A stretch of 59,625 bases of DNA from Acholeplasmataceae bacterium (GTDB lineage: Bacteria; Bacillota_I; Bacilli_A; ML615J-28; CAG-313). The stretch spans positions 1-59,625 of the forward strand of contig DUPC01000062.1 in the NCBI GenBank assembly GCA_012838545.1, read 5' to 3'. Shown one piece after another: positions 25,057 to 57,404 of the stretch (its first letter is position 1; every line of letters starts with the position of its first letter). The notes below the pieces were generated by a model. That model searched no databases, was not told the origin of the DNA, and worked only from the letters and a program-made list of their open reading frames with translations. Position numbers and translations under genes: made by a program.

Positions 25057-25380
25057 ATGAAGCTTATAATAATCATTGTTGCCAATGAAGACGCAACAAA
25101 AGTAACCAATGCGCTATTGAAAGAAAAATTCTTTGTTACCAAACTTGCCACAACCGGTGGGTTATTAATGAGCGGCAATACGACTTTGTTGGTGGGTACC
25201 AACGAAGAAAATGTCGATCATGTGATTGACATTGTCGGGGGTTACAGTAAAACCCGGAAAAAAGTTGTGCCAAGCACAATTCCGAATGAATTTGGAATGT
25301 TTTCCTCTTATCCGCTAGAGGTTCAAGTAGGTGGAGCAACCATCTTTGTCATTGACATTGAGAAATTTATCAAATTATAA
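25057..25380 (+). CDS. darA: PII-like cyclic di-AMP receptor DarA
   Basis: A 107-residue PII-like signal protein that binds cyclic di-AMP, forming trimers in the cytosol. The sequence follows B. subtilis DarA (109 residues) along its length: MKLIIIIV, then VTKLATTGGLLMSGNTTLL, which forms the nucleotide pocket, then YPLEVQVGGATIFVID at the C-terminus. It uses ATG 25057 after AAAGGGGG; the longer reading frame upstream does not match the family. It is a single-gene unit. The presence of DarA implies c-di-AMP signalling elsewhere in the genome, usually linked to K+ and wall homeostasis. Confidence 0.93.
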   Translation: MKLIIIIVANEDATKVTNALLKEKFFVTKLATTGGLLMSGNTTLLVGTNEENVDHVIDIVGGYSKTRKKVVPSTIPNEFGMFSSYPLEVQVGGATIFVIDIEKFIKL

Positions 25381-25422
25381 TGCCTAGTTATGAAAATTAT
25401 TGTTCGCCTTTGATTAAGGCAT

Positions 25423-33024: not shown

Positions 33025-33786
33025 GTGAAAAAAGGATTGATTTACTTGGAGACCGTGTTGGCTTTAAAAAATGTATGCAAAAGTTTTTATACCGAATTAG
33101 GAGAATTGAGGGTACTTAACAACATTTCCTTTGAAGTCAAAAAAGGCGAAATCGTTGCTTTGATTGGCCCAAGCGGCAGTGGTAAAACCACGCTTTTGAA
33201 CATTTTAGCCAAAATTATTAAACCCACTTCGGGTGAAGTTTATTTGGATGGGGAAATCGGCTATATGTTTCAACGCGATCATTTATTGGAGTGGCGAACC
33301 ATTTGGAAAAACTTGCTGATCGGACTGGAGATTACGGGACAAAACGATGAATTGCATCAGGAACAGATTAAAGAAATGCTGCATAAGTACGGCTTAGACG
33401 GTTTTACCCGTAATTTCCCCCATGAGTTATCGGGGGGAATGCGTCAAAGGATTGCCTTGATTCGTACTTTATCAATCGAACCGAGTATTCTCCTGTTGGA
33501 TGAACCATTCTCTTCTTTGGACTATCAAACGCGTTTAATGGTTAGCGATGATGTTTACCACATGATTAAAACCGAAAAACTCACCGCTATTTTAGTCACC
33601 CATGATATTTCAGAAGCCATTTCGATGGCCGATCGAATTGTCGTTTTAAGCGAACGGCCGGCGGAAATCATCAACATTCATGACATAAAATTAACTATCA
33701 ATGGCTTGAAAACTCCGTTAAAAGCGCGTACTGCCGATGAGTTTCGTCAATATTTCGATCAAATATGGAAGGAGCTCCACAAATGA
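33025..33786 (+). CDS. ABC importer ATPase, SsuB/TauB/ThiZ type
   Basis: A 253-residue ATPase of a nitrate/sulfonate/thiamine-precursor type importer. Walker A GPSGSGKTT, signature LSGGMRQRIALIRTL, Walker B LLLDEPFSSLD and the switch His in LVTHDISEA are intact; a Q-loop GYMFQRDHLLEWRT with the LLEWRT wording is typical of SsuB-like members. The start is uncertain: GTG 33025 gives the longest form, TTG 33046 follows AAAGGA, and GTG 33055 or TTG 33058 follow GGAG. Its stop overlaps the permease start (ATGA). No TPP or other riboswitch was seen in the leader. Confidence 0.88.
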   Translation: MKKGLIYLETVLALKNVCKSFYTELGELRVLNNISFEVKKGEIVALIGPSGSGKTTLLNILAKIIKPTSGEVYLDGEIGYMFQRDHLLEWRTIWKNLLIGLEITGQNDELHQEQIKEMLHKYGLDGFTRNFPHELSGGMRQRIALIRTLSIEPSILLLDEPFSSLDYQTRLMVSDDVYHMIKTEKLTAILVTHDISEAISMADRIVVLSERPAEIINIHDIKLTINGLKTPLKARTADEFRQYFDQIWKELHK

Positions 33787-34577
33787 TTGAACCAAAGGAA
33801 AATCCCTACTTAATCAATTTGCGCAAAGAAAAGCGCAAAATCCTCGCCATTCAATTAGTGTTGCTTGTTTCCCTCCTTTTAGCATGGGAATTAAGCGCCA
33901 AGTACGGCCTTATCAATTCCTTTTTGTTCAGTCGACCATCACGGATTTACCAAATCTTTGTGCAATATCTGTTGCACGGCAAATTAATGACCCATATCGG
34001 GGTTTCGGTTTTGGAGACCGTTTTAGGTTTAGTGCTCGGAACCGCTCTGGGATTAATAATTGCGATTATCCTGTGGTGGAATGCTACAATCGCTAAGATA
34101 TTGGACCCTTTTTTGGTTGTCTTAAATGCTTTGCCCAAAACCGCTTTAGCACCCATTTTAATTATATGGGCAGGTACCGGAATCAAAGGCATTACCGTCG
34201 TTGCCATGTCAATCTCGCTTGTACTAACTATCCTTTCGGCTTATAACTATTTTCAACAAATAGAAGAAGACAAAATTAAAATGTTGAAAAGTTTCAAAGC
34301 CACCAAATGGCAAATCCTTACCAAGTTGATCTTGCCGAGCAATTTTCCCAATCTTATCACTATTATCAAAATCAATATCGGTATGAGTTGGGTAGGGGTT
34401 ATCGTCGGAGAATTCATCGTTTCGCGTTATGGCATCGGTTATTTAATCGTCTACGGTTCCCAAGTCTTTTTAATGGATTTGGTGATGATGGGGGTCATTG
34501 TTTTAGCGTTTATAGCTTTTTTCATGTATGCCGGGGTTGCGGCAGTGGAGAACAAATTTAAATCAAAAAGGGGATAA
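33783..34577 (+). CDS. ABC importer permease, SsuC/TauC/ThiX type
   Basis: A 264-residue permease with about six helices. The EAA-like cytoplasmic loop is present (KMLKSFKATKWQILTKLILP), and NALPKTALAPILIIWAGTG is characteristic of the SsuC/TauC branch. It overlaps the ATPase gene by four bases and is followed one base later by the substrate-binding lipoprotein gene, giving a complete three-part importer. Confidence 0.9.
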   Translation: MIEPKENPYLINLRKEKRKILAIQLVLLVSLLLAWELSAKYGLINSFLFSRPSRIYQIFVQYLLHGKLMTHIGVSVLETVLGLVLGTALGLIIAIILWWNATIAKILDPFLVVLNALPKTALAPILIIWAGTGIKGITVVAMSISLVLTILSAYNYFQQIEEDKIKMLKSFKATKWQILTKLILPSNFPNLITIIKINIGMSWVGVIVGEFIVSRYGIGYLIVYGSQVFLMDLVMMGVIVLAFIAFFMYAGVAAVENKFKSKRG

Positions 34578-34578
34578 G

Positions 34579-35586
34579 ATGAAAAAATACTTATTATTAT
34601 TAATTCTACTCCTATCGATGATAGGAATTACCGGTTGTAAAGATGATGATTTAATAAAAATTCACTTGGCAGAAGTTGCCCATTCCGTTTTCTACGCTCC
34701 TCAATATGTTGCCCTAAACAAAGGTTTCTTTGAAGAAGAAGGGTTAAAGGTGGAAATCACCAATGTCAATGGGGCAGACAAAGTAATGGCAGCTCTATTG
34801 TCTGGTGATGTCCAAATTGGTTTATGCGGGCCGGAAGCTTCTATTTACGTGTATAACAATGGTCAAGAAGATTATATGGTAAACTTCATCCAACTGACTC
34901 AACGGGATGGATCGTTTATTGTTGGGCGGGAACAAATCGAAAACTTCGATGTTACGATGCTTAAAAACAAAAGCATTTTAGGCGGTCGTAAAGGCGGTGT
35001 TCCGGAAATGACCTTGGAATACGTTATCAAACAAGCGGGTTTAACGCTTGCCCATAATAGTTTTGAAAATGACGTCAATGTCCGAATCGATGTGCAATTT
35101 GGGGCCATGGCAGGAGCTTTTATCAGCGGGGAAGGGGATTTTACAACCCTTTTCGAACCTACAGCCACGCAAATCGAACGTCAAGGCCATGGTTATGTCT
35201 TAGCCGCAGTGGGAGCTTTATCGGGCGAAATCCCTTTTACGGCTTATAGTTGCAATAAATCGTACTTGGAAAAAAACCATGAAATATTGGAAAAATTTAC
35301 TCGGGCGATTTATAAGGGACAAAAATATGTCCAAGAAAATTCCAATCGCGATGTGGCAATTGCCATGCAACCAAGTTTTGTGGATGCATCGCTTGATGAT
35401 TTGATTATGGTTGTTGCCAGATACCGATCCATTGACGCCTGGTGTCACACACCATCCTTCAAAGAAGAAGGGTTGAACCGCTTAATGGATATCATGGAAC
35501 TTGCGGGGGAATTAACCGTAAGGGCACCCTTTGAAAAAATCGTCGATAATTCGCTAGCAGAAAGGATTATCGATGAATTGAATTAA
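34579..35586 (+). CDS. ABC importer substrate-binding lipoprotein (NMT1/SsuA-like)
   Basis: A 335-residue surface lipoprotein with lipobox IGITGC (Cys20). The mature part is of the NMT1/THI5 and SsuA class: EVAHSVFYAPQYVALNKGFF, LLSGDVQIGLCGPEA, then GGRKGGVPEMTLEYVI and FTAYSCNKSY. These proteins bind sulfonates, nitrate or pyrimidine precursors such as HMP. No sulfonate monooxygenase or thi gene is nearby, so the ligand is unknown. The AAAAGGGG site precedes the ATG at 34579. An inverted repeat 58 bases after the stop may end the transcript. Confidence 0.88.
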   Translation: MKKYLLLLILLLSMIGITGCKDDDLIKIHLAEVAHSVFYAPQYVALNKGFFEEEGLKVEITNVNGADKVMAALLSGDVQIGLCGPEASIYVYNNGQEDYMVNFIQLTQRDGSFIVGREQIENFDVTMLKNKSILGGRKGGVPEMTLEYVIKQAGLTLAHNSFENDVNVRIDVQFGAMAGAFISGEGDFTTLFEPTATQIERQGHGYVLAAVGALSGEIPFTAYSCNKSYLEKNHEILEKFTRAIYKGQKYVQENSNRDVAIAMQPSFVDASLDDLIMVVARYRSIDAWCHTPSFKEEGLNRLMDIMELAGELTVRAPFEKIVDNSLAERIIDELN

Positions 35587-35644
35587 AAACTAAACAACTA
35601 ATAATTCAATTTGCACAAAAAAGAAAAAAACACATAATATAAAA

Positions 35645-35691
35645 TGTCAATTAAAAAGGCACTTGAAACTTTCAAGATTTTTTAATTGACA
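35645..35691. repeat. Long inverted repeat downstream of the ABC importer
   Basis: TGTCAATTAAAAA (35645-35657) is a perfect inverted copy of TTTTTAATTGACA (35679-35691). Inside, CTTGAAA (35662-35668) and TTTCAAG (35670-35676) pair around one base. The right arm contains the -35 box of the next promoter. It may end the ABC transcript or act as a regulator site for the small-RNA promoter. Confidence 0.6.
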
Positions 35692-35714
35692 GTATTATGC
35701 GCATATGCTATAAT
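35686..35714 (+). promoter_or_regulatory. Consensus promoter of a candidate small RNA
   Basis: TTGACA (35686-35691), 17-base spacer ending in TGC, TATAAT (35709-35714): both hexamers match consensus, one of the two strongest promoters in the window. Confidence 0.85.
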
Positions 35715-35720
35715 TATTTA

Positions 35721-35804
35721 CGAGAGGAGTCAAAAAAAGAGTTTATCCTTTTTTTGGAGTTTAGTTTTAGGAGAAGGAAACCGAAAGGTTTCCTATTTTT
35801 TTTA
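35721..35804 (+). ncRNA. Candidate small non-coding RNA of about 80-85 nt
   Basis: The span runs from the predicted start (seven bases after the consensus -10) to a strong terminator. No plausible coding sequence fits: the only open frame runs through the terminator stem. The RNA would carry two AGGAG/GGAGT-like segments and T-rich stretches before the terminator. It does not match tmRNA, SRP RNA, 6S RNA or known riboswitches by eye. Promoter and terminator are seen; the RNA itself is inferred. Confidence 0.6.
35775..35804 (+). terminator. Terminator of the candidate small RNA
   Basis: AGGAAACC-GAAA-GGTTTCCT (35775-35794) with a stable GAAA tetraloop, followed by ATTTTTTTTT. Confidence 0.9.
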
Positions 35805-35835
35805 ATAATTAAGGAAATACTTTTTGAGAGAAAAA

Positions 35836-36624
35836 TTAAATTTCCGAATTTGGTATTAACCAACTATTTTCAGGTTTAGATATTAATCTCGCTAATGAAT
35901 ATGCCCAATCTAGGGTGAATATTGTATTTGCTCTATATCGGCTTTTTACTTTTTCTACCGCAAGTGCCATTGTGTAAATTTTATTATCAACTGGTAAGTT
36001 TAAAGGCAAAAGAAACATTATTTTATTATTGTAATATTGTGGAACAGCAATCCTGTGATTTCGTTCGATTAACTTTTTTGTAGATTCAACAACTCCTTTT
36101 AACATTACTTGGACGGCAGGTTTTCCTAGATTAGCAATATCTGTATGGAATCTTTCCCAGTTTTCTTCAATAATATGTTGATAATTTATTACTATTTCTA
36201 AATTAGGGTCAAAAATCAGGTCCTCAAAGTTATCATAATGTTTTACCACACAAGGTGTTTTTTCAAACTTATCTAAAAACTCCCTGTTAGATTCAATAAA
36301 AAAATCAATAAAAAACCATTCTTGTCTTCCAACCATTTCGTTTCTTTTAAACATCATGATAATTGACTCATAATTTTTTGTTAATAATCCCGTGTTAAAA
36401 CAACAATAATCATTTTTTTCATCGAATAAAATGTTGTTAGTATTAAAAGCCCTCTCAAACGTTTTATCAATATAGAATTTCAAAACCCCAAGTGGGTATT
36501 CCGAATCAATAGTCCAATTCTCTTTTTCCGCCATTTCCTCTAATTCAGAAAGTTTATTAAAATAAAAATCATTATTACCAGTAAAAGCAAAATCTCTCAA
36601 AATCATTAAACCATTTTCCGCCAT
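35836..36624 (-). CDS. DUF3825-domain protein
   Basis: A 262-residue soluble protein. The C-terminal third has the DUF3825 marks: RIAVPQYYNNKIMFLLPL, then ALAVEK and TIFTLDWAYSLARLI with a final KPENSWL. The N-terminal half is rich in Phe, Asn, Asp and Glu and includes NTGLLTKNYE. DUF3825 has no firmly known function. The gene is more A/T-rich than its neighbours, is transcribed against them, and sits between a small-RNA unit and an A/T-rich gap (36625-36903), which suggests acquisition by transfer. GAGGAG precedes the ATG; a TATAAT lies about 30 bases upstream on the minus strand. Confidence 0.8.
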   Translation of the reverse strand: MAENGLMILRDFAFTGNNDFYFNKLSELEEMAEKENWTIDSEYPLGVLKFYIDKTFERAFNTNNILFDEKNDYCCFNTGLLTKNYESIIMMFKRNEMVGRQEWFFIDFFIESNREFLDKFEKTPCVVKHYDNFEDLIFDPNLEIVINYQHIIEENWERFHTDIANLGKPAVQVMLKGVVESTKKLIERNHRIAVPQYYNNKIMFLLPLNLPVDNKIYTMALAVEKVKSRYRANTIFTLDWAYSLARLISKPENSWLIPNSEI

Positions 36625-57375: not shown

Positions 57376-57404
57376 TTGACAAGTTTTGGTTGATGATGTA
57401 TAAT
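57376..57404 (+). promoter_or_regulatory. Consensus promoter of clpB
   Basis: TTGACA (57376-57381), 17-base spacer, TATAAT (57399-57404). The expected start lies inside the CIRCE element just downstream. Confidence 0.92.

Follow-up and report, generated by a model that had tools for sequence, protein, structure and literature searches.

A candidate small RNA gene, possibly antisense to a convergent DUF3825 mRNA, in an Acholeplasmataceae bacterium

Background

The RatA RNA of Bacillus subtilis overlaps the 3' end of txpA by approximately 120 nt and acts as an antisense RNA via RNase III, and SR5 acts on bsrE by the same route through a 3' overlap of 114 nt (PMC3531473, PMC8464778). Intergenic small RNA (sRNA) genes are recognized by their promoter-terminator layout (PMC2573895).

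We examined a unit of this layout in a window of 59,625 nucleotides, the whole stretch of DNA analyzed. Like RatA/txpA, SR4/bsrG, SR5/bsrE and SR6/yonT, the unit lies tail to tail beside a horizontally acquired gene, has its own strong promoter and terminator and is predicted to give a short non-coding RNA, and RNase III is encoded in the genome. In contrast to those pairs, its neighbor is a 262-aa DUF3825 gene and not a small hydrophobic toxin; moreover, transcript overlap is deduced here from the gene layout, and the pairing of the RNA with DUF3825 was not found to be conserved. As the putative target has 262 aa, and is not a hydrophobic toxin of under about 60 aa, a type I toxin-antitoxin system was rejected. 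To our knowledge, 3'-overlapping antitoxins act on small toxin genes and not on 262-aa proteins.

The unit also resembles SR1 and RoxS/RsaE, stand-alone trans-acting sRNAs of Firmicutes, in having a promoter and an intrinsic terminator, no long ORF and no requirement for Hfq. It differs from them in having no Rfam match, C-rich seed, known target or conservation. The RNA is short and carries several GGA motifs, which recalls the sequestering RNAs of the CsrB/RsmZ type. Neither Hfq nor CsrA was found in the 96%-complete genome (controls for the CsrA search were positive); an Hfq-dependent sRNA was therefore rejected, and a CsrA sponge is very unlikely.

Promoter and predicted RNA

The promoter was located on the plus strand at 35686..35714 by inspection of the sequence, a promoter scan and a genome-wide pattern count. 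Its sigma-70/sigma-A boxes, TTGACA at 35686-35691 and TATAAT at 35709-35714, are separated by 17 bases and match the consensus at 12/12 positions, as the sequence-only reading had reported, and TG is present at the extended -10 (TGC-TATAAT). No other 12/12 site occurs between 30 and 45 kb of the window. In the 1.71-Mb genome, exact-consensus promoters with spacers of 16-18 bases number 43, compared to approximately 2.6 expected from base composition and none in the reversed control; the spacer is 17 bases in 36 of them. We read all 43. The majority open genes for proteins, ribosomal proteins among them, or T-box leaders (of which Rfam confirmed four), a tRNA pair or an apparent rRNA leader, and the few orphans include the 35686 unit and one on contig C57. 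Given this great excess over the expectation, and the recognizable genes and leaders behind most of the sites, the 35686 promoter is probably genuine. An intergenic exact promoter with a terminator after it is very likely real, though chance matches do occur: TTGACA-N18-TATAAT at 25352-25381 (+), located where a coding sequence ends and just 5' of that gene's terminator, is likely one and calls for caution with others.

The predicted non-coding RNA occupies 35720..35804 of the plus strand, with ends placed from the promoter and terminator. Transcription should start near 35720-35722 and end at about 35804, giving an RNA of 82-85 nt, or about 84 nt for the interval given. From its 5' end (GAGAGGAG) it comprises a hairpin of A7 and T7 arms (35730-35757), a GGAG-rich single-stranded stretch and an intrinsic terminator at 35775..35804 (+), identified by a terminator scan. 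The latter consists of an 8-bp stem with a GAAA loop (AGGAAACC-GAAA-GGTTTCCT) followed by the U tract ATTTTTTTT; in the minus-strand direction, its tail has few U residues. The RNA body folded only slightly better than shuffled sequences (z -1.66), indicating that its internal structure is not exceptional. Neither ATG nor GTG occurs in 35720-35804. The single TTG (35754-35756) lacks a properly spaced Shine-Dalgarno sequence, and a listed 60-aa ORF (35697-35879) begins inside the promoter, 5' of the expected RNA start. The earlier description of an RNA of about 80-85 nt with a GAAA-tetraloop terminator and no credible coding sequence therefore holds. The unit thus has the general features of an intergenic sRNA: a promoter and an intrinsic terminator of its own, spaced within the 40-500 bp used for such genes (PMC2573895), an intergenic location and no coding potential.

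Inverted repeat upstream of the promoter

An inverted repeat at 35645..35691, characterized by repeat search, folding and terminator scan, abuts the promoter. It has perfect 13-bp arms (TGTCAATTAAAAA/TTTTTAATTGACA; 35645-35657 and 35679-35691), an inner CTTGAA/TTCAAG stem and a T-run. The -35 box forms the end of the right arm, so that both the repeat and its overlap with the promoter are as first reported. Only two perfect stems of at least 12 bp with a loop below 30 occur in the window, and this repeat is one of them. Folded as RNA, 35637-35700 reached -18.2 kcal/mol compared to -6.25 ± 2.3 kcal/mol for shuffled sequences (z -5.2, 0/200), forming a hairpin of 14 + 6 bp with an asymmetric internal loop and the T-run. 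The inner hairpin is weak, with two G-C pairs, and is followed directly by the T-run; the -35 box starts 2 bases past it.

Two roles had been proposed for this element, binding a regulator and ending upstream transcription. The second fits better, since the element combines an RNA hairpin with a T-run, relatives have terminators in the equivalent position and none precedes the repeat here. Most relatives carry a hairpin terminator immediately after the same substrate-binding-protein gene, and no other terminator was found by the scan between the importer and the repeat. The two halves fall short of a strict dyad in the DNA, and as RNA the element makes a credible hairpin, so an operator for a regulator is less likely. 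We conclude that the repeat is likely the terminator of the importer operon, abutting the promoter, and that it possibly ends the DUF3825 mRNA from the opposite side as well. At a conventional energy and tail cutoff, the plus strand yielded the sRNA terminator alone and the minus strand nothing; the repeat, if it terminates transcription, therefore does so weakly, in the manner of A-tract/U-tract terminators.

Searches for homologs

The 251-base region was compared with 60 relatives by BLAST, yielding only short AT-rich chance matches. A covariance model of the RNA searched against 43 genomes of the order scored 117.8 bits on itself and 31.9 bits on the best other match, and the six best other matches aligned essentially only in the terminator hairpin. 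Nothing credible was found in Rfam at gathering or permissive thresholds (best, FopS, 28.4 bits compared to 56, mostly from the terminator), and no homologous DNA was found in phages, plasmids or viral contigs. As a positive control, the same DNA search recovered the genome's other orphan unit (C57:15437-15596) in the nearest relative, G005, so that the negative result for the 35686 unit carries weight at short range. In G005 this unit is absent or unrecognizable. The sequence-only reading had suggested a regulatory RNA, to be checked by covariance and Rfam searches and by alignment of the region. These were run, and conservation of promoter and stem, whose absence that reading had named as refuting, was not found in the relatives compared, all from outside the source's own genus. 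The compact non-coding unit with a strong promoter is well supported; its regulatory role is putative. sRNA genes need not be conserved in relatives. Judged from its sequence features, 35686-35804 is probably a lineage-specific candidate sRNA gene of an ordinary type, and nothing distinguishes it from known kinds.

Neighboring genes and a possible antisense mechanism

Upstream lies an ABC importer operon (33025..35586, plus strand) encoding an ATPase, a permease and an NMT1/THI5-like substrate-binding protein. Downstream, the DUF3825 gene (about 35836..36624, minus strand) converges on the RNA unit, 3' end to 3' end. DUF3825 was sporadic in the class, with 8 of 395 genomes positive, and was absent from 14 other genomes of the family. 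It was common on plasmids of unrelated bacteria (Campylobacter, Geobacillus, Lactococcus, Enterobacter and Streptomyces), with 42 plasmids found, and its neighbors include transposases, an integrase and an abortive-infection gene. The sporadic occurrence, plasmids and such neighbors indicate that DUF3825 is mobile, and we regard it as a candidate mobile or defence gene. It was rejected as a known defence protein: there was no PADLOC or PDB match, and the domain was not named in the literature searched. Its single-sequence fold was too poor for use (pLDDT 36).

With this arrangement, the strong housekeeping promoter and intrinsic terminator would yield the non-coding RNA of about 84 nt, while the 35645-35691 hairpin, judging by its position and folding, would stop importer-operon transcription just 5' of the -35 box. 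From the other side, the DUF3825 mRNA, with no recognizable terminator until the repeat, would run through the whole unit. This is expected because no minus-strand terminator precedes the repeat (none was found by the scan between the DUF3825 stop and 35561) and the tail of the sRNA terminator is U-poor in that direction. The 3' untranslated part of the mRNA would then complement the RNA exactly over its whole length. Pairing of the RNA with this tail may lead to RNase III cleavage, RNA polymerase on the facing strand may add opposition, and the outcome would be that the horizontally acquired gene is kept at low expression.

Cis-antisense silencing through RNase III thus appears the most likely mechanism. 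The full reading, in which a real lineage-specific sRNA gene of about 84 nt follows a repeat that ends the importer operon and its RNA is cis-antisense to the convergent DUF3825 mRNA, is tentative; we consider it plausible, if short of probable. The unit and this model are favored by an exact promoter far above chance, a perfect-stem terminator, the lack of a start codon, the convergent layout, the mobility of DUF3825, the presence of RNase III where Hfq and CsrA were not found, and the precedent of the 3'-overlapping antisense RNAs of Bacilli. Against the antisense model, the RNA was conserved neither in the same genomic slot nor with the DUF3825 genes of relatives, several of these genes carrying terminators of their own, and the inner hairpin of the repeat, a possible end of the DUF3825 mRNA, is weak. 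It is distinctly improbable that a dedicated antisense RNA silences mobile DUF3825 from its 3' end as part of an RNA-controlled module around an uncharacterized, plasmid-borne and possibly defence-related protein.

If transcribed, the unit would add a lineage-specific sRNA to those known, from uncultured Bacilli and from a genome where neither Hfq nor CsrA was found. It would also offer a test case for whether antisense RNAs commonly restrain newly acquired mobile genes. This candidate alone alters no general view.

Alternative explanations

The RNA could instead act in trans and without Hfq, its hairpin loop (AGUUUAUC) or GGAG-rich stretch base-pairing with mRNAs encoded elsewhere. We hold this to be possible but rather unlikely. 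A stand-alone intergenic promoter-terminator unit is the classic sRNA layout (PMC2573895), and B. subtilis SR1 and RoxS control their targets without Hfq (PMC8464778). However, no putative seed was conserved in the relatives searched, and pairing with the genome's other orphan RNA (-25.5 kcal/mol) was close to the mean for shuffled sequences (-24.5 kcal/mol), 70 of 200 of which paired as well. A role as a sponge for that RNA was rejected on this basis.

More doubtful is that the unit is the leftover promoter and leader of an earlier gene in the slot, replaced by DUF3825 and now transcribed to no function. Two genomes of the family keep the gene order importer, X, diacylglycerol kinase-like, uracil-DNA glycosylase and D-Ala-D-Ala carboxypeptidase. 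There, X is an uncharacterized 151-aa gene on the plus strand (L047 6062-6514, L048 1696-2148), whose promoter follows closely on the importer, and the sRNA unit is missing; this difference suggests that the slot is a replacement site. This gene and the Shine-Dalgarno-like GAGAGGAG with which the RNA opens, without a start codon, speak for a leftover leader. However, the 151-aa gene leaves no trace in the slot: its best matches in the window lie elsewhere (E at least 0.01), and the DNA alignment was not convincing. With no residual homology found, a remnant of this gene was rejected, and a 12/12 promoter with a perfect 8-bp terminator would be unexpected in a decaying leader.

Lastly, an accidental promoter match with no dedicated transcript, whose hairpins merely terminate neighboring transcripts, is very improbable: some 2.6 exact matches are expected per genome and the one at 25352 lies at a coding-sequence end, but this one is intergenic, with a 17-base spacer, an extended -10 and a same-strand terminator at sRNA distance, exact matches number 43 against that expectation, and the 35775 terminator faces away from every gene it could end, bar read-through from the far-upstream importer.

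Other exact-consensus promoters

The second orphan unit lies on the minus strand of contig C57 (C57:15437-15596; L122 1300-1560 / L155). The RNA predicted from its exact-consensus promoter is about 110 nt long, forms three hairpins and carries the conserved C-rich single-stranded motifs TATCCCCTACATAA, ATCCCTTCC and CCCCCCACAGG. Its homolog in G005 (C113:36175-36300; L156) is 77% identical over approximately 121 bases, and the last stem shows a compensatory change, GCCCTGTGG/CCACAGGGC compared to GTCCTGTGG/CCACAGGAC. No Rfam family matched. On these sequence grounds, it is a better-supported sRNA candidate than the 35686 unit.

Within the window, a further exact-consensus promoter at 57376-57404 (+) has a CIRCE-like repeat (TTAGCACTC...GAGTGCTAA) behind it, and both lie 5' of a gene for a 706-aa Clp-like ATPase. 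Motifs of similar sequence (GTGCTAA or TGCTAAC) occur in the L116, L120 and L124 promoters, pointing to a probable HrcA heat-shock regulon.
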